DNA of 41,125 bases. It comes from Deltaproteobacteria bacterium (GTDB lineage Bacteria; Desulfobacterota; Desulfobacteria; Desulfobacterales; JAUWMJ01). The position numbers and the translations under genes were made by a program. A model generated the notes under the pieces. The model had not been told where the DNA came from. It saw nothing but the letters and a program-made list of their open reading frames with translations, and did no database searches. Of the stretch, positions 22,960 to 32,690 are shown piece by piece; the first letter of the stretch is position 1; each line of letters starts with the position of its first letter. The stretch spans positions 1-41,125 of the forward strand of contig DAOWEJ010000062.1 in NCBI GenBank assembly GCA_030638575.1. The letters run 5' to 3'.

Positions 22960-23080
22960 AAATATTTGAAAAGGAGGATAAAAAAAGAAATAGCATCAGG
23001 GTGCGAGTATTGCCCAAAACCTTACTCGATTTAGAAAAAGAACAGATATCATATATGAATATTTTGCAGGAGGAATGAAA

Positions 23081-23485
23081 TTGACATATACTTTAGGTCA
23101 GGAACAACTTGATAGCATGGAAGAGATTTTGCAGGAGCATCTAATTGATGTCGGGGTTCGTTGCGTTTTTCTCATTGATATGGCCGGCAATATAATTGCC
23201 AATAAAGATAATGGCAAAATAAAACACGATGTTTATTCCCTGGCGGCCCTTGCTGCAGGAAACTTCGGTGCTGTGAGCGCCATGGCTAAAATAATTGGGG
23301 AAGGTGAATTCTCGTTGCTTTTTCATAAGGGTAAAAAGGAGAATATTCATTTCAACAAAATAAGCGCGGAATTTTTACTGATTACCATATTCAGCAACGA
23401 GATATCCTTAGGTTTTCTACGATTGAAAGTCGGTGAGGCTGTGGAAAAAATAAAGAAAATATTAGATAACATCAATACACCCTGA
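23081..23485 (+). CDS. Roadblock/LC7-family protein (MglB-like)
   Basis: 134 residues from the chosen start. GVRCVFLIDMAGNIIA, LAALAAGNFGAVSAMAKIIG, then FSLLFHKGKKENIHFNKI and LLITIFSNEISLGFLRLKV give the alternating roadblock/LC7 pattern of MglB and related GTPase partners. I prefer TTG 23081: AGGAGG at 23068-23073 is 7 nt away, whereas the ATG at 23075 is only 1 nt from it. The next gene encodes an MglA-like GTPase, so this is probably its regulator or activator. Which of GAP, exchange or scaffold roles applies is not visible. Confidence 0.85.
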   Translation: MTYTLGQEQLDSMEEILQEHLIDVGVRCVFLIDMAGNIIANKDNGKIKHDVYSLAALAAGNFGAVSAMAKIIGEGEFSLLFHKGKKENIHFNKISAEFLLITIFSNEISLGFLRLKVGEAVEKIKKILDNINTP

Positions 23486-23555: not shown

Positions 23556-24161
23556 ATGGCATTTGTTAATCCGAAAAAAAAAGAGGTCCAGGTTAAAGTT
23601 GTATATTATGGCCCAGGAAGGGGCGGTAAAACAACTAATCTGGAATATATATATAAAAAATTCGACAAACGTATAAAAACAGAGATGGTCACCATCAAAA
23701 CCCATGGTGATAGAACGCTTTTTTTCGATTTCCTTCCTTTTGATATTGGAACAGTGAATGGATATGAGGTTAAAATACAGCTCTATACGGTGCCGGGGCA
23801 AGTAAAGTATGACGCTACCAGGCGACTTGTCTTAAGAGGGGTTGACGGAATTGTTTTTGTGGCAGATTCAATGGAGGTAAGAAGAGAGAAAAACATACTT
23901 TCTATAAAGAATCTGCAGGAAAATCTTGCAAATTATAAAAAAAGCATTTTCAAGATCCCAATCGTACTGCAATACAACAAAATGGACCTTGCAGAACAGG
24001 GAATCCCTCTATTGCCCGTTGAAACCCTTGAAAAAGACCTTAATAGTCAGTTAAAGACATCGTCTTTTGAGGCCAGTGCGATTACGGGAAAAAACGTAGT
24101 ACCGACCATGAAAAAGATCGTTTCCATGACAATTGCTACGATAGTCAAGGATCTGAAATAG
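23556..24161 (+). CDS. MglA-like small Ras-family GTPase
   Basis: 201 residues. P-loop GPGRGGKT (19-26), LFFDFLPFDIGTV, the switch II motif TVPGQ (78-82), NKMD (141-144) and SAI (174-176) are those of bacterial MglA GTPases, which set cell polarity and steer type IV pili or gliding machinery in myxobacteria. The P-loop has RGG where Myxococcus-type MglA has LCG. The roadblock gene is upstream and a charged unknown protein gene begins 11 bp after the stop. GTP-dependent switching is established for the family; the target here is inferred to be the motor ATPase at the end of the cluster. Confidence 0.93.
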   Translation: MAFVNPKKKEVQVKVVYYGPGRGGKTTNLEYIYKKFDKRIKTEMVTIKTHGDRTLFFDFLPFDIGTVNGYEVKIQLYTVPGQVKYDATRRLVLRGVDGIVFVADSMEVRREKNILSIKNLQENLANYKKSIFKIPIVLQYNKMDLAEQGIPLLPVETLEKDLNSQLKTSSFEASAITGKNVVPTMKKIVSMTIATIVKDLK

Positions 24162-24172
24162 GAGGTTGTTAA

Positions 24173-24808
24173 TTGGTACGTGAAAATTTCGATGATGCTC
24201 TAGTCAATGAAATCGATGGCCGTTTGGATAATTTGTTCGGTGAGGATGAAACGCCGCATAAAGATGCGGGGAAAAGTAAAAATCCTCAAGATTATCCTTT
24301 AAGAGAGCTAAAAGCTATTGTTTTATCTATCGACTGGGAGATAACCGATGACGTAATGAACAGGTTTGTTGATCAAACAGCCCGATTAAAAAAAAGATAT
24401 AGAGGCGACAAGATTCCTTTCACGTTTCTTCAGCTTCTCGGTTCAATTGGAGAATATATAAGGACCAACAAGGCCAAGTCACACCAGGATGCCTTTAAAA
24501 TTCTTAATTCATTATTTACAAAATTGGATAAAATGGTCCGTACAGAAGGTTTAGCAGAATCTGAAAAGAAAAAGATCCTTTCTGTTGAATTGAAAAAATA
24601 TAAGATTTTGAAAGATAAGTTAGCTTCCAGCAAGGCCGTTGTACAAAAGGAAAAACGCATAAAACCTGAAGAAAAGATTAAGCCTGAGAAGACCGATACG
24701 ATTCCTATAGAAGCCTTTGCAGATGCTATGGATCAGGTCAGACAGCTAATCCGAGTGGAATTCAAGGCTCTTAGGGATGAATTAAAGTTGTGGAGAAAAG
24801 GAAAGTAA
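24173..24808 (+). CDS. Conserved charged helical protein of unknown function
   Basis: 211 residues starting at TTG 24173 with GGAGG 7 nt upstream. Residues ~40-145 look like one helical domain (LRELKAIVLSIDWEITDDVM, RYRGDKIPFTFLQLLGSIGE, KSHQDAFKILNSLFTKLDKM). A Lys/Glu-rich linker (residues ~145-175) and a C-terminal amphipathic helix (AMDQVRQLIRVEFKALRDEL) follow. No enzyme motif, signal peptide or membrane segment is seen. Its place directly after the GTPase gene makes it a candidate effector or scaffold. I do not recognise the family by function. Confidence 0.7.
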   Translation: MVRENFDDALVNEIDGRLDNLFGEDETPHKDAGKSKNPQDYPLRELKAIVLSIDWEITDDVMNRFVDQTARLKKRYRGDKIPFTFLQLLGSIGEYIRTNKAKSHQDAFKILNSLFTKLDKMVRTEGLAESEKKKILSVELKKYKILKDKLASSKAVVQKEKRIKPEEKIKPEKTDTIPIEAFADAMDQVRQLIRVEFKALRDELKLWRKGK

Positions 24809-24928: not shown

Positions 24929-25399
24929 ATGGATGTTTTGTCGGGTGATATTTCTGTTATGGTTTTCAAACAAGTGGTAAGAGACGGAGCCGGGGATATT
25001 TCCATAGACAGCCGGTTGCTGAGTGTGTTTCTGGAGTTGGATGGTAAAAAGACTCTTAGTACAGTTGCACAAAAAGCAGGTATGAATATGGGGGATATGA
25101 GAGAAGTTATATCCAGGCTTTTGGACCTGAATCTTGTGGAACCAACGGTGGAAAATGTTTTGATGCTGGATGATGATTTTATCGATTATCTCAATACTCA
25201 ATTATCCCTTGCGGTTGGTCCGGTTGCTGAAGTTTTGGTAGAAGATGAAATAACTAATATGGGCCACATCTTTTCACAATTCCCGGCTTCCAGGGTGGCG
25301 GAACTGGTTGAAATGCTCTCCAGTACCATTAAGCGTGAAGAAAAAAAGTCTGCGTTCAAGCTGAGTATGGTTAATAAAATAAGAGAAAAGGGATATTGA
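24929..25399 (+). CDS. Winged-helix-like protein with C-terminal 'GPVAEVLV' module
   Basis: 156 residues. Residues ~20-80 resemble a winged-helix/DUF4388-associated fold (SRLLSVFLELDGKKTLSTVA, MREVISRLLDLNLVEPT). Residues ~95-155 (LSLAVGPVAEVLVEDEITNM, AELVEMLSSTIKREEKKS) look like the small C-terminal domain that ends various myxobacterial and deltaproteobacterial signalling proteins. No DNA-binding or catalytic residue can be named. GGAGGA precedes the ATG. A role in protein-protein contacts within the cluster is inference. Confidence 0.68.
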   Translation: MDVLSGDISVMVFKQVVRDGAGDISIDSRLLSVFLELDGKKTLSTVAQKAGMNMGDMREVISRLLDLNLVEPTVENVLMLDDDFIDYLNTQLSLAVGPVAEVLVEDEITNMGHIFSQFPASRVAELVEMLSSTIKREEKKSAFKLSMVNKIREKGY

Positions 25400-25453: not shown

Positions 25454-26605
25454 ATGATTATTATTTGCGAGGAATGTGGGAAAAAATTTAGTATAGATCC
25501 CTCGAAAATTAAAGGTGATCAGGCTAAATTTAGATGTGATGCGTGCAATAATGTAATAACTGTTAGAAAGCCTGTGGAAACTCCGGAGCCATCTCTTAAA
25601 AAGCCGCCGTTCATACAGCCTGATGGTGAAGTAGATGCTAAAAGAAAAGTTGCTCATAAGCCGGAAACTAAGAAAAAACATGTTAAAACAAAGGGCTCTA
25701 AAGGATTAAGTTTAAATATAAAAAGATTAGGTTTGCGTGGTAAAATGTTGCTGCTTTTCTTTTTGATTCCTATTCTTTTAGTGGTAGCTGCAAACATACT
25801 CTATTTATGGCAGATGAACTCACTTACATCACTCCTTACATCAGAAAGCACTGAAATGGTAAAAAAGCTTGTGGAAGACAAGGTGGTCGATACTGCGAGA
25901 AAGGTTGCCGCACAATGCACTCTTTACCTTGAGTCAAATCGCGGGTTGAAAAAAGAAAACTTTAATTTAGATGCCGACTTTAAAAGAATAGCCGTACAAA
26001 GAGTGGGAATGACGGGATACACCGCTCTTTATGAAAGACCCGACTTAAAAGGCGTCTGGCATACATGGGTTCATGTCAATCCTAAAATCATCGGTATTGA
26101 TATGAGCACACTAAAAAAGGCTATGGGGAAAAATTTTGCAGGTTTCTGGAGAGTTTATACCGGAGTAAAAGGTGGCGATGAATCAAGAGATTATTATAAA
26201 TGGGTAGAAAGAGACGGTTCTGTAAGAGAAAAGTACATGGCATGCACACCTGTTGAGGGGACTAAATATGTAATTGCTGCTACGACATACGTTGATGAAT
26301 TTTTAAATCCTGTTAAATTGCTTGAAACTCGGGCAAAGAAACAGACGATTACAACACGAAATATCATTATTGGGATATTCGGATGTACTATCTTACTGAT
26401 CGGTTTTGTGGTTTCTTTTTACGGGTACAGATTAACGGGAAGAATCAAAACTTTAACCGATGTTGCCGACCGTATCAGCATTGGTGAGCTTGACGCAGAA
26501 ATGGATATAAAGACAGGGGACGAAATAGGTGATTTGGGTGAAGCAATTGGCAGGATGCAGGAAAGTATCCGCCTATCCATAGAGAGGCTTCGACGGCGGA
26601 AATAA
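25454..26605 (+). CDS. Membrane sensor: zinc ribbon-TM-Cache-TM-HAMP, no output domain
   Basis: 383 residues. An N-terminal zinc ribbon (C5-x2-C8 and C28-x2-C31, MJ0042-like), a basic linker, TM1 ~98-118 (LLLFFLIPILLVVAANILYL), an extracytoplasmic Cache-like domain ~125-295 (GMTGYTALYERP ... GVWHTWVHVNP ... YMACTPVEGTKYVIAATTYV), TM2 ~303-323 and a HAMP domain ~324-376. The protein ends seven residues after HAMP, so there is no methyl-accepting, kinase or cyclase output. The cytoplasmic zinc ribbon may therefore be the partner-binding end, or HAMP may contact another protein. Cache ligands are often organic acids or amino acids; the ligand is unknown. Confidence 0.83.
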   Translation: MIIICEECGKKFSIDPSKIKGDQAKFRCDACNNVITVRKPVETPEPSLKKPPFIQPDGEVDAKRKVAHKPETKKKHVKTKGSKGLSLNIKRLGLRGKMLLLFFLIPILLVVAANILYLWQMNSLTSLLTSESTEMVKKLVEDKVVDTARKVAAQCTLYLESNRGLKKENFNLDADFKRIAVQRVGMTGYTALYERPDLKGVWHTWVHVNPKIIGIDMSTLKKAMGKNFAGFWRVYTGVKGGDESRDYYKWVERDGSVREKYMACTPVEGTKYVIAATTYVDEFLNPVKLLETRAKKQTITTRNIIIGIFGCTILLIGFVVSFYGYRLTGRIKTLTDVADRISIGELDAEMDIKTGDEIGDLGEAIGRMQESIRLSIERLRRRK

Positions 26606-26686: not shown

Positions 26687-27670
26687 ATGGTCATTATTCC
26701 CAGAGAAAAGCCGGTAATAGAAGATTTGAATATTTATTATTTAAAAATAAAAAGACTGTTTGAACATTACCAGGGAGAAATCGGATCGGGCGGAGTTTTC
26801 TTTAAATTTCATTCTGCAGAGGGGGTAATTTTCTTCGATAAGGATGAACTCTTAAACGGCTATTTTCAAGACAAAGATATAAAGTTGACCGGCAATGCAG
26901 CTATCGACAGGATGATAGAAGCAGAGGACGACTATAATTTTTCTGTCAGTATATTTAAAATAGCCCAAGAAGAGATTTACTTCTGGGCCAGCCTCCCATC
27001 TGCGAAAAAAATTTACAGGGATCTCAGCACAGAATTTACTGATCTTGAAGGATTGATAAAGAAGATGAGTTCAGAAAAGCTTACCGGCTATATTGATGTT
27101 TCAATAGGAGACGGTAAAGAAGGCGGCCTCATCTTTATAAGTAATGGTGAGATCATCGGCGGTTCTTATTCCTGGGGTAGGGGAGAGCCGAACCCTTCAA
27201 AAAAGAACCTGGAACTTCTTATTGAAAAGACTAAAGAATCCAGTGGAATTTTTCATGTGAGTCGGATTCCTATGAAGAGCGAACAAGTCGAGAGCGAACA
27301 GAAAGAATCCGTCTCTGATACTGCTTTAGATACTCTAACGATGCTTGAGGAACTTTTAGGTGTATTCGAGACAGTGGTATCAACCGGCAAGAAAAAGAAC
27401 ATAGATTTCAGCAGTGTGTTAAGGAAAAAATTTGTGGAAAGTGCGGAAAATTATAGTTTTCTTGACCCATTTGCCGGTGAATTCGAATATTCCGGCCAAA
27501 AAATTACTTTTTCAGGTGACGCCGGTGAAAAAGAATTAGCCGAAGGTGTAATAGAGTCGGCAAAGGGACTTGCGGAAGAGCTAGGAATACTGCCCGAACT
27601 TATAAATTATCTGTCATCATGGACTGATAAATACGAGAAGAAACTTGCAAGCCTCGGAATAAGTGTATGA
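26687..27670 (+). CDS. DUF4388-like signalling protein, two repeats plus C-terminal helical domain
   Basis: 327 residues, cytoplasmic. Two stretches follow the DUF4388 pattern of a short beta-rich module with 'GxIxFxxGxIxxA'-type turns: residues ~30-100 (GGVFFKFHSAEGVIFFDKDE) and ~120-205 (LTGYIDVSIGDG, GGLIFISNGEIIGGSYSWG). Residues ~220-327 are largely helical (LDTLTMLEELLGVFETVVST, ... LPELINYLSSWTDKYEKKL). The start ATG has GGAGGAG 4 nt upstream. DUF4388 domains are usually linked to response regulators and MglA systems; one such regulator lies in this cluster. Specific function unknown. Confidence 0.68.
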   Translation: MVIIPREKPVIEDLNIYYLKIKRLFEHYQGEIGSGGVFFKFHSAEGVIFFDKDELLNGYFQDKDIKLTGNAAIDRMIEAEDDYNFSVSIFKIAQEEIYFWASLPSAKKIYRDLSTEFTDLEGLIKKMSSEKLTGYIDVSIGDGKEGGLIFISNGEIIGGSYSWGRGEPNPSKKNLELLIEKTKESSGIFHVSRIPMKSEQVESEQKESVSDTALDTLTMLEELLGVFETVVSTGKKKNIDFSSVLRKKFVESAENYSFLDPFAGEFEYSGQKITFSGDAGEKELAEGVIESAKGLAEELGILPELINYLSSWTDKYEKKLASLGISV

Positions 27671-28048: not shown

Positions 28049-29200
28049 TTGGATGAGGAGAAAGACCTTTTCAATTTCTTTATAGTAAAAGGATTTAACG
28101 AAAAGATGACTGGTTTACCTTTTGAAGGAGTTATAGATAGTTCTGCTGGAAGGTATACCGATTTTTTTAACAGCATACCAGCGGCGATTTACAGAACAAC
28201 GGTTGAAGGAAGAATTGTTTATTGCAACAGGACTTATGCACATATATTCGGTTTCGATTCCGTTTCTGAATTAATAGATTATCCGGTTGTTAATCTATAC
28301 AGGAATAAGAAAGACAGAGGTGTTCTGGTAAATTCCATTATACAAAGAGGACGTGTAACGGATCTGCCGCTATCGTTTAAAAAAAAGGACGGAACGCCGA
28401 TCTGGTGCTCAGTTACGGCTAGAGCAGTTATAGATGAAGATGGCATTGTTGGGCACCTGGATGGTGTAATGAAGGATATCACAGGAGAAATAGAAGAAAA
28501 AGATGTTGAACCAAGTCTTGATGGAGCTTTTAATGATTTAAACTATTGTATTATTATTTTTGATCTTCAGGGAAATTTGCTCGATATAAACGAAGCAGGC
28601 GTTAAATTAATTGGATTTTCAAAAGATGAGTTGATCGGCAGATCATTGTCCGAATTTATTTTACCGGGACAGAGAGTTCTTTTTCTTCTGTTCCTTTCAG
28701 ATATATTGAAAATCGGACATGAAGAAGTTATCCTGCCTATAGTTGATAAAAATGGTGAAAAGCGTCATATTGAATTTAATGCAACACTTGTAAAAAAGAA
28801 CAGCAGGGCACACCATATAAAGGGAATTGCCCGGGATATAACAAAACGTGCGGAACAGCAAAAAAGTAGGTCAAATAAGGATAAATTTCAAGGTGTCCTA
28901 GAGATGGCAGGCGGAGTGGCACATAGACTGAATCAACCACTTACGATAGTTAGTAATCTCATTGATGAAGTATTATCCGATTTGCACTCTGATAACCAGA
29001 ATTACAAAAAAATAGTTACCGTGCATCAACAAATAAAGAGGATGAATGAAATAACAAAAAAAATTGGGAGTATAAAAAAGTATGAAGCTATGGATTATGT
29101 GGCTGGAATAAAAATTGTTGATATTGATAAGGCTTCATTAGAGAAAAACCGGGAAGCTATAAAGATAAGAAGTCAGGGGGCAAGGAAGCAGGGAGATTAG
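28049..29200 (+). CDS. PAS-PAS-histidine phosphoacceptor protein lacking the ATPase domain
   Basis: 383 residues. PAS1 ~35-147 (AAIYRTTVEGRIVYCNRTYA ... GHLDGVMKDIT), PAS2 ~161-276 (CIIIFDLQGNLLDINEAG ... IKGIARDIT), then a DHp-like segment with H292 in GGVAHRLNQPL and the QIKRMNEITKKIG helix. The protein ends ~90 residues after the H box with no N, G1 or G2 boxes, so it cannot autophosphorylate alone. I recall similar ATPase-less forms ending near 'IDIDKAS' in Desulfobacterales. The last residues (SQGARKQGD) come from a palindromic repeat. The start is uncertain: TTG 28049 has no good ribosome-binding site and ATG 28106 is an alternative. Confidence 0.8.
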   Translation: MDEEKDLFNFFIVKGFNEKMTGLPFEGVIDSSAGRYTDFFNSIPAAIYRTTVEGRIVYCNRTYAHIFGFDSVSELIDYPVVNLYRNKKDRGVLVNSIIQRGRVTDLPLSFKKKDGTPIWCSVTARAVIDEDGIVGHLDGVMKDITGEIEEKDVEPSLDGAFNDLNYCIIIFDLQGNLLDINEAGVKLIGFSKDELIGRSLSEFILPGQRVLFLLFLSDILKIGHEEVILPIVDKNGEKRHIEFNATLVKKNSRAHHIKGIARDITKRAEQQKSRSNKDKFQGVLEMAGGVAHRLNQPLTIVSNLIDEVLSDLHSDNQNYKKIVTVHQQIKRMNEITKKIGSIKKYEAMDYVAGIKIVDIDKASLEKNREAIKIRSQGARKQGD

Positions 29201-29293: not shown

Positions 29294-30316
29294 ATGATAA
29301 AAAATGTATTGATTGTTGACGATGACAAGGAGATGTTGCTTGCCCTTAAAAATGGGTTTTCCAAGTATAAGGAGACATTTTCGGTATTAATAGCTGAAGA
29401 TGGCATAATTGCAGTGGAAATGCTTAAGAAGAAAACCATTTCCCTTGTTGTCACTGATTTGAAAATGCCTAAAATGGATGGCTTTGCTCTTTTGGCTCAT
29501 ATTATGGAAAATTATCCCGACATTCCTGTAATCATAATTACAGGTTACAGCACTCCTGAAATGGAAAAACTCGCACTACGGGGCGGTGCTGTGGGATACA
29601 TTGCAAAACCCTTCATGCTGGAGAATCTGGCTAGAAATATTATGGTCACATTGAGAAAGGAGTCGGAGGGGGGAACACTTCACAGTGTCTCATCGGGCAT
29701 TTTCCTTCAATTGATGGAAATGGAACAAAAGACCTGTACAATCAGGTTGACAGATAAATCCACGGGCAACACGGGGGTTCTCTTTTTTCAGGATGGTGAA
29801 ATGCTTGACGCCAGGGCTAATGACCTGCAGGGTAAATCTGCTGCCTACCAGATTTTTTCATGGGAAGAAGTTAATATCTCCATCCAGAATGTTTGCCCTA
29901 AGATGGAGAATAAAATCCAGAGCGATTTGCAACCTTTGATTCTTGAGGCAATGCGAATAAAGGATGAGAGCCAAAAAGAAAAAGAGCTGGAAGAAGTAAC
30001 GGAAGAGATGGTAGAAGAGGTGAAAACCAAGGAGGTAAAACCGTCTGATCCTGTAAAAGAAATTAAAAGAAAGCTTGAAAAACAGATTGGTCCGAGATGT
30101 GGAGTGGAAGATATATACATGGACTCTTCATGGGATGGCTGGACAGTACAGATGTCGATTGTCGGTGATTTTTTTAATATCGGAAAATTGAAGGTCGGCT
30201 ATATGGATAAAGGTGAATCAAAGGATACGATAGTGCTTTCTGGAAAAAATGCAATTGTGATTTCGGTGAGTCCTAAATGTCCAAAGGATAAAGTAATTCA
30301 GGTCTTGAGTACGTGA
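29294..30316 (+). CDS. Response regulator with DUF4388 output domain
   Basis: 340 residues. Residues 1-120 form a CheY-like receiver with acidic D9-D10-D11, phosphoacceptor D55 in VVTDLKMPKMDG, T83 and K105 in YIAKPF. Residues ~130-230 are DUF4388 (FLQLMEMEQKTCTIRL, NTGVLFFQDGEMLDARAND, AYQIFSWEEVNISIQ). A Glu/Lys-rich linker leads to a C-terminal domain ~250-340 of unknown type (CGVEDIYMDSSWDGWTVQMS). GCAAGGAG precedes the ATG. It follows the phosphoacceptor protein and is followed 4 bp later by the motor ATPase gene, so it probably conveys phosphorylation to that ATPase or to the GTPase. Confidence 0.88.
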   Translation: MIKNVLIVDDDKEMLLALKNGFSKYKETFSVLIAEDGIIAVEMLKKKTISLVVTDLKMPKMDGFALLAHIMENYPDIPVIIITGYSTPEMEKLALRGGAVGYIAKPFMLENLARNIMVTLRKESEGGTLHSVSSGIFLQLMEMEQKTCTIRLTDKSTGNTGVLFFQDGEMLDARANDLQGKSAAYQIFSWEEVNISIQNVCPKMENKIQSDLQPLILEAMRIKDESQKEKELEEVTEEMVEEVKTKEVKPSDPVKEIKRKLEKQIGPRCGVEDIYMDSSWDGWTVQMSIVGDFFNIGKLKVGYMDKGESKDTIVLSGKNAIVISVSPKCPKDKVIQVLST

Positions 30317-30320
30317 ATGG

Positions 30321-32690
30321 ATGCGAAAGATGAAAACAGGGATTGATTTAAAAATCAATGAAGCAGAGGTCTGTCGATCCATGGGGTTATATGATGAATC
30401 TCTGACTATTTATCAACAGATCCTGTCGAGCCTTCCCGAAGAGGACAATCAGACTATCGAAACTATCAAAAAGAAGATTAACGATGTAAAACAGGAAATG
30501 GCAGACCGGAAGCAGAGTAAACCCAAACAAGTCTCTGCCGAAGATATTTCCATTCTTAAAAAGACCATGTCTGGTGATGAGAGTAAATCGGCAGTTCTTG
30601 ACAGTGCTGCAGCTTTTAACGATATGGGTCTTTTCAATGAAGCAGTAGCTGAATACGAAAAATTATTATTCCAGGATTTTACTGTTGAAGAAATTATCCC
30701 TGAATTTGCAAAATCTCTTCTAAAACTCCATTCACCTTCAAAAGTTGTTGAACATGTTAAAAAACTTGTCAATGACCAGCGGCTTGAAAAGAAGAAGAGA
30801 GCCAGGATAAAATTGTATTTTGGTCAAGAAATGGAAAGGAAAGAGCATAAGGACCAGGCGCTTGATTTCTATAAGGCGGCTGTTGAACTGGATCCAAACG
30901 AAACTGAAATCAGAAAAAGACTCGATTCACTATATGCAACACTTTCGTCAGGTTCCAAATATGATTACCTTTTGCGCCAGGAAAAGGTGACAACCGACCA
31001 GCTTCAAAAAGCTTTTGCACTTTCAAAAAAAATGAAAAAGAGTGTGGAATTTGTTCTTACAGGACAATACGGGATCAATAAGGCAGATATCGGAAAATCC
31101 TTTTCTGCGTTTTATAACTGCTCTTTTAGAGAATACGATTCTGCTTTTCCCATACCTAAAGAGATTTTAGGGAATTTAAAGAAAACATTTTTATTAAATG
31201 AAGGATGGGTCCCTTTAAGCTGGGATAAGGACGGAGTGGAGGTGCTTGTTGATGACCCAAGAAATTTAAACAAGACCGACAACATCAAGGCTCTGATGAA
31301 TACTTCCAAGATCAATTTCTCCGTGGCGATTAAGGAGGATATTGAGGAGTATGTAAAGCGTTTTTATGATGCCGACCAGACTATTGAAACGATATCTGAC
31401 GAAAATGGGCTCGATGATTTCGACCTGATTCCGGATGTTTCTTTTGAAGAAGAGGAAGAAGTTGAAGAGGTAGAAGGAGAGGATGAAAGTTCCAGCAAGG
31501 TAGTAAAGTTAGTGGATCAATGCATTATTGCAGCTTTCAGAAAAAATGCCTCTGATATACATATAGAGCCATCCCCTATTACAAAGGCTACAAATATTCG
31601 GTTTAGACTGGACGGAGTGTGCCAGGACTATCTCAAGGTTCCTAATGCAATGGCCAGGGGCATTCTTTCCAGGATCAAAATTATGTCTTCCCTTGATATT
31701 GCGGAAAGAAGGCTGCCACAGGACGGAAAAATTAAATTTAAACGGAAAGGGGTACCTCAATTTGAACTTCGGGTTGCAACACTTCCAACAGCCGGGGGTT
31801 TTGAGGATGCTGTATTAAGAATCCTGGCCAAGGCAGGCGCAATGCAAATAGATGATATGGGGTTAAGTGAGAGAAATTTAACTGTTTTAAAAAAAATTAT
31901 CTACAGGCCATACGGTCTTGTGCTTGCTGTGGGACCGACAGGTTCAGGCAAGACAACGACACTCCATTCCGCTCTTGGTGAAATCAACAAGCCGGAGGTA
32001 AAGATATGGACAGCAGAAGATCCTGTGGAAATTACCCAGGCCGGTTTGAGACAGGTAGAGGCGAAGCCAAGAATCGGGCTGGATTTTGCAAGGATAATGC
32101 GTGCTTTTTTGCGGGCGGACCCGGATGTTATTATGATCGGCGAAATGCGTGATGAGGAGACCGCTTCAATAGGCATAGAAGCATCTCTTACCGGGCACCT
32201 GGTTTTTTCAACCCTTCATACAAATAGTGCCCCGGAAACTATAACCCGTCTGCTCGATATGGGCTTAAATGCTCTTAATTTTTCGGATGCTTTTCTCGGT
32301 GTTCTTGCTCAAAGGTTGGTGAGGAGATTGTGTACTAATTGTTGCAAAGACTATAATCCCTCCAAAGAGGAATTCGAAGAGATAGTAACAGATTACGGAA
32401 AAAAAGATTTTGCTGCCACTGGAATAAAATATTCATCAGATCTTAAATTAAAACGTTGTGGGAGCTGTGAGGTTTGTTCGGGAACAGGATACAAGGGGAG
32501 ATACGGAATACATGAGTTAATGGAGGGTACTCCTGGAATTAAAAGATTAATAAAAAAGCAGGCTTCAGCGGAAGAACTTTTCAAATTTGCAATGAAAGAG
32601 GGGATGAGAACGCTGAAGCAGGATGGGATCGAAAAGGTTTTTCAGGGACTGACGGATATAAGTGAAGTAAGGAGAGTATGCATAACGTAG
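30321..32690 (+). CDS. GspE/PilB-family secretion/pilus ATPase with TPR-like N-terminus
   Basis: 789 residues, longer than usual PilB/GspE (~500-570). Residues ~10-205 read as TPR-like helices (GLYDESLTIYQQILSSLP; DQALDFYKAAVELDPNE). Residues ~215-350 are an MshEN/GspE N-terminal-like domain, then an acidic linker (371-390). The motor core has Walker A GPTGSGKT (538-545), an Asp-box region AEDPVEI, Walker B VIMIGEMRD (603-611), His box GHLVFSTLHTN (625-635) and the Cys cluster C671/C674 and C713/C716/C719. All catalytic elements are intact. No secretin, platform or pilin gene is nearby. A second ATG at 30330 is possible. Confidence 0.92.
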   Translation: MRKMKTGIDLKINEAEVCRSMGLYDESLTIYQQILSSLPEEDNQTIETIKKKINDVKQEMADRKQSKPKQVSAEDISILKKTMSGDESKSAVLDSAAAFNDMGLFNEAVAEYEKLLFQDFTVEEIIPEFAKSLLKLHSPSKVVEHVKKLVNDQRLEKKKRARIKLYFGQEMERKEHKDQALDFYKAAVELDPNETEIRKRLDSLYATLSSGSKYDYLLRQEKVTTDQLQKAFALSKKMKKSVEFVLTGQYGINKADIGKSFSAFYNCSFREYDSAFPIPKEILGNLKKTFLLNEGWVPLSWDKDGVEVLVDDPRNLNKTDNIKALMNTSKINFSVAIKEDIEEYVKRFYDADQTIETISDENGLDDFDLIPDVSFEEEEEVEEVEGEDESSSKVVKLVDQCIIAAFRKNASDIHIEPSPITKATNIRFRLDGVCQDYLKVPNAMARGILSRIKIMSSLDIAERRLPQDGKIKFKRKGVPQFELRVATLPTAGGFEDAVLRILAKAGAMQIDDMGLSERNLTVLKKIIYRPYGLVLAVGPTGSGKTTTLHSALGEINKPEVKIWTAEDPVEITQAGLRQVEAKPRIGLDFARIMRAFLRADPDVIMIGEMRDEETASIGIEASLTGHLVFSTLHTNSAPETITRLLDMGLNALNFSDAFLGVLAQRLVRRLCTNCCKDYNPSKEEFEEIVTDYGKKDFAATGIKYSSDLKLKRCGSCEVCSGTGYKGRYGIHELMEGTPGIKRLIKKQASAEELFKFAMKEGMRTLKQDGIEKVFQGLTDISEVRRVCIT

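Follow-up and report, generated by a model that had tools for sequence, protein, structure and literature searches.

The mglA cluster and its ATPase gene

The window analysed here, a stretch of 41,125 nucleotides from a member of the Desulfobacterales, carries on its forward strand a row of genes in the order mglB, mglA, four conserved genes, a PAS-PAS-HisKA gene, a REC-PATAN gene and a gene for a PilB-like ATPase with N-terminal TPRs. The first one (23075..23485) encodes a Roadblock protein of the MglB kind (E 6e-20 to the solved Myxococcus xanthus MglB), for which the NCBIfam MglB model is the best match, yet below its cut-off. The next gene (23556..24161) encodes an MglA-like GTPase, with E-values of 2e-53 and 1.5e-52 to the solved MglA proteins of Thermus thermophilus and M. 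xanthus, respectively; MglA is its closest family over the full length, and the next family follows at E 1e-6.

Among the four conserved genes, the first (24173..24808) has no Pfam match and the second (24929..25399) just a weak winged-helix match below cut-off. The third (25454..26605) encodes, according to Pfam, a protein with Zn-ribbon, Cache-like and HAMP domains and no output domain, and the fourth (26687..27670) a protein of 327 residues with no Pfam match and a weak similarity to PATAN (hhalign E 8e-5, probability 60). The PAS-PAS-HisKA protein (28049..29200) lacks a HATPase domain by Pfam. In about ten loci its orthologues likewise end just behind the HisKA helix, so the protein could act as a phospho-acceptor or as a scaffold and have no kinase activity. 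Finally, the gene of a response regulator made of REC and DUF4388 (PATAN) domains by Pfam (29294..30316) ends 4 bp short of the ATPase gene, an open frame encoding 789 residues (30321..32690, + strand). Most relatives of the ATPase begin at the equivalent of Met4 (30330), and this alternative start may be the true one.

Domains of the ATPase

As originally predicted, the motor core is complete. The T2SSE domain spans residues 388-785 (31482..32675; PF00437, E 3e-114), and the Walker A and B motifs, the Asp and His boxes and four cysteines are invariant in 35 relatives. The predicted surplus of around 220 residues holds as well: solved PilB proteins have 566-588 residues, which leaves about 200-220 additional ones, and they align from residue 211-215 onwards, which puts the additional N-terminal part at about 205-215 residues. 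A start with TPR-like helices and an acidic linker before the core had also been anticipated, and both are there, although the linker follows an MshEN-like domain and not the TPR part, so that the order reads TPR (1-209), MshEN/N1-like domain (about 213-352), acidic linker (353-388) and motor core.

A T2SSE core with all its motifs and an MshEN/N1 domain ahead of it are features of the PilB type. However, the protein scores 492 bits against the NCBIfam PilB equivalog model (TIGR02538), whose cut-off is 676, and is therefore called PilB-like, and not PilB, throughout; no protein in the seven genomes searched reaches that cut-off. It also stays under the cut-off of the NCBIfam GspE model. Given that GspE proteins outscore it on the PilB model itself, its identity as a PilB is argued from elimination (see below) and not from sequence class.

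AlphaFold, with 29-35 natural relatives in the alignment, predicts eleven helices over residues 2-209 of the N-terminal module (residues 1-210, 30321..30950) with a pLDDT of 87. Almost every PDB neighbour retrieved by Foldseek and VIA-align is a TPR protein, with the best matches covering residues 84-210, and TPR_14 passes the Pfam cut-off at residues 164-201 (25.9 versus 23.5). The predicted fold thus consists of helical hairpins, as in TPR proteins, and bears out the TPR-like character first proposed. It comprises about four hairpins plus a long helix (43-65), the exact number of repeats being uncertain owing to the large rmsd of many of the structural matches and the poorer coverage of the first hairpin (2-37). 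A Pfam Leptin match at residues 6-83 (24.8 of the 25 bits needed) was taken as a chance helical match.

Absence of the extension from close homologues had been named beforehand as grounds for abandoning the idea, and many homologues do carry it: a profile detects the extension in many Desulfobacterota, and 24 of 58 related genomes, four of them with two copies, encode at least one TPR-type ATPase, according to the table of ATPases and the hits of the N-terminal profile. The extension is under purifying selection, its dN/dS being 0.14-0.18 in comparisons with two genomes of the same genus, and this value, together with its conservation, rules out a mis-called start or a random extension. One clade (L042, L044, L045, L046 and L052) has a shorter extension, without the first TPR hairpin and the long helix, and there is no MglA nearby in the three of these loci with enough flank.

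In other genomes, close relatives of residues 207-788 have a GAF domain at the position of the TPR module. These GAF-type ATPases of Desulfobacterota and Nitrospirota are the closest relatives of the core (about 53% identical) and, like the TPR-type ones, are encoded by orphan genes; several of them (L117, L119, L120 and others) have housekeeping genes close by, mutS among them. In a tree built from the final 580 residues, with the extension left out, a branch with an SH-aLRT support of 81 separates the 61 TPR-type proteins from the sister ATPases with GAF; at inner nodes the support rises to 97 without the two most distant proteins and to 100 for the main 57. This core-only tree shows that the TPR-type ATPases share a common origin, and the simplest reading would be a single acquisition of the TPR module, with the direction of the change not settled by the tree.

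The MshEN/N1-like domain (residues 213-352, 30957..31376) matches PF05157 at residues 274-352 (E 4e-11). Domains of this family can be c-di-GMP receptors, recognised by two RLGxx...LxxxLxxQ motifs (PMC5013675), and we scored both this pattern and a relaxed version of it. Neither occurs in any of the 61 TPR-type ATPases, and the motif is kept in neither the TPR-type nor the GAF-type group. By contrast, two relaxed copies are present in the MshE-like ATPase of the same genome. Since the TPR-type ATPases lack the motif, a control by c-di-GMP through this domain is unlikely. The acidic linker that follows (residues 353-388, 31377..31484) is predicted as disordered (AlphaFold pLDDT 26-48) and contains a PDVSFE motif (residues 371-376, 31431..31448) specific to the TPR-type ATPases. 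The pattern PD-x-x-FE occurs in the linker of 45 of 61 TPR-type and none of 34 GAF-type proteins, with 0.1 expected by shuffling, in counts that come from related sequences and are not independent. As a speculation, PD-x-x-FE could serve as a peptide for docking or for autoinhibition. A more elaborate version, decidedly unlikely in our judgement, would have the polarity GTPase gate the motor, the TPR groove holding the PD-x-x-FE linker to keep the hexamer off until MglA-GTP displaces the peptide.

The machine driven by the ATPase

There are no pilus genes in the window. An ordinary PilB of a pil operon is thereby ruled out, as none adjoins the ATPase gene. Elsewhere in the same genome, which is 76% complete, a pilMNOPQ set (contig C26) and a pilC gene followed by the gene of a PilS-like kinase (C97) have no ATPase adjoining either of them. 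By our reading of the open frames, two other ATPases have platform proteins of their own: the one on C23 lies in a GspC/D/L/M/N-like set, and the one on C33 is accompanied by pilins. The incompleteness of the genome, and a further ATPase of the GAF type in G001, its closest well-assembled relative, count against the assignment proposed below.

Three more complete genomes have no GAF-type ATPase. One of them (G029, 97% complete) encodes one PilC, together with PilM, PilT and PilU, a second platform protein with an ATPase linked to it, and two TPR-type ATPases; once PilT, PilU and the platform-linked ATPase are set aside, these two alone remain to serve the orphan PilC. The second (G044, 99%) has a T2SS-like ATPase, PilT, PilU, one TPR-type and one weaker ATPase (on C4, 353 bits), and the third (G031, 100%) has two TPR-type ATPases plus two further ones. 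By elimination, most cleanly in G029, the TPR-type ATPase is probably the extension motor of a type IVa pilus, and we infer in the same way that the protein of the window drives a pilus whose machinery is encoded by the unlinked pilMNOPQ and pilC genes.

It could be argued instead that the ATPase serves a secretion or signalling system and no pilus at all, given a window without pilus genes and a score below the cut-off of both the PilB and GspE models. The invariance of all the catalytic motifs, and the genomes that encode orphan PilC, PilMNOPQ and PilT/U without having any other free ATPase, speak against such a role, which we regard as highly improbable.

Genomic association with MglA and PATAN

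The extension had been proposed as a docking site for MglA or for the DUF4388 proteins, and the link to MglA gained independent support. In the Desulfobacterota set, restricted to loci with 6.5 kb or more of upstream sequence, 22 of 33 TPR-type genes and none of 25 GAF-type genes have an MglA gene no further than about 10 kb away (Fisher 4e-8, with related loci treated as independent), the GAF-type loci coming in part from the same genomes. Three layouts occur: the long mglB-mglA...REC-PATAN-pilB cluster, an mglA directly upstream of the TPR-type gene, at 64-110 bp (L047, L050 and L123, where flanks are short), and a divergent mglA (L037 and L051). Judging from these different layouts, mglA and the TPR-type ATPase gene were apparently paired, or their arrangement changed, on more than one occasion. 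A second type of TPR-PilB (L034, L037, L046, L051, L124 and L127) has no preceding REC-PATAN gene and shows downstream a receiver-domain protein, which is REC-PAS by Pfam in L034 and by sequence resemblance in the other five.

A separate TPR protein adds to this association. Contig C52 of the same genome encodes a protein of 301 residues homologous to the extension (E 1.2e-22, the next generic TPR match being 7e-11), whose gene precedes a second mglA and the gene of a PATAN-cNMP protein. Orthologues are present in 33 of 45 well-assembled relatives, and the order TPR-mglA-PATAN, with no ATPase in the operon, is kept in 19 of the 20 loci fetched; in the exception (L162), the separate TPR lies within a REC-PATAN/MglB/MglA cluster. 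We regard this operon as the strongest independent pointer that the TPR module may work with MglA or PATAN. In one example (L111:5954-9126), the PATAN protein has two cyclic-nucleotide-binding domains. By eye, the separate TPR protein seemed to carry a PilZ domain towards its C terminus, for which Pfam gave no match.

The same data bear on which of the neighbours would dock on the module. The TPRs could receive the PATAN response regulator, with MglA acting upstream or on the PATAN protein itself, and three facts speak for this: the REC-PATAN gene ends just ahead of the ATPase gene, a PATAN protein is also part of the separate TPR operon, and PATAN-REC proteins bind PilB1 in Synechocystis (PMC9090330, PMC7690835). 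The distribution of the genes, however, runs the other way, as MglA occurs without PATAN near five of the 33 TPR-type genes and PATAN without MglA near none, and mglA is the immediate neighbour in the three loci with short flanks mentioned above. Besides, we know of no TPR extension on the PilB1 that PATAN binds in Synechocystis. Docking of PATAN in place of MglA is possible, if rather doubtful. The TPR module might also be structural, binding PilM, another protein of the pilus base or itself, and the link with MglA might reflect shared regulation only. TPRs are general scaffolds, and MglA is missing at 11 of the 33 TPR-type loci, but the same TPR stands beside MglA in an operon without any ATPase, and this explanation looks unlikely to us.

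A probable motor with a proposed docking module

On balance, we lean towards a PilB-kind extension ATPase of type IVa pili that has gained a TPR docking module, which would take MglA-GTP, with the REC-PATAN protein as a second input. A PilB-kind ATPase would have acquired the N-terminal TPRs where its sister ATPases hold a GAF domain, and the module would receive the GTP form of the neighbouring MglA. Bound there, MglA-GTP would recruit or license the hexamer at the pilus base of the active pole, and MglB would end the signal. The product of the adjoining REC-PATAN gene, upstream of the ATPase gene, would act on the same motor as a second input controlled by phosphorylation. Both contacts, TPR-MglA and PATAN-motor, we infer from the genomic association together with the precedents of SgmX and PixE.

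In M. xanthus, MglA and SgmX recruit PilB, and how they bring it to the pilus base has been described as unknown (PMC11580455). Control of a PilB ATPase by an MglA-type GTPase, MglB and a TPR protein would be common to both systems, and in this functional sense the parallel with SgmX drawn in the original prediction stands. It does not extend to the proteins themselves: SgmX is a separate protein with 14 TPRs for which no direct contact with PilB has been detected (PMC11580455), whereas here about four hairpins are fused to the ATPase, which is thus no SgmX orthologue. The TPRs would do in cis what SgmX does in trans. A TPR motor that recurs beside a Ras-like polarity switch suggests that the switch docks directly on the motor, and not through a separate adaptor as in Myxococcus.

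The proximity of MglA to PATAN was noted earlier (PMC4316618). In Synechocystis, PixE and LsiR are REC-PATAN proteins paired with a PilB-type motor, as in the window, but they act on PilB1 in phototaxis and there is no MglA in the published model. The PilF of T. thermophilus (913 residues in the PDB) is likewise a PilB-type ATPase with a large N-terminal extension, although that extension is made up of c-di-GMP-binding GSPII/MshEN repeats, in contrast to a TPR module and a remaining MshEN domain without the motif. No TPR-PilB fusion was found in the open-access literature.

The locus of the window joins two known inputs, MglA and PATAN, with one fused motor, and the clustering of this fusion with MglA, MglB and PATAN offers a compact system in which to ask whether a single TPR surface links the GTPase and the motor.
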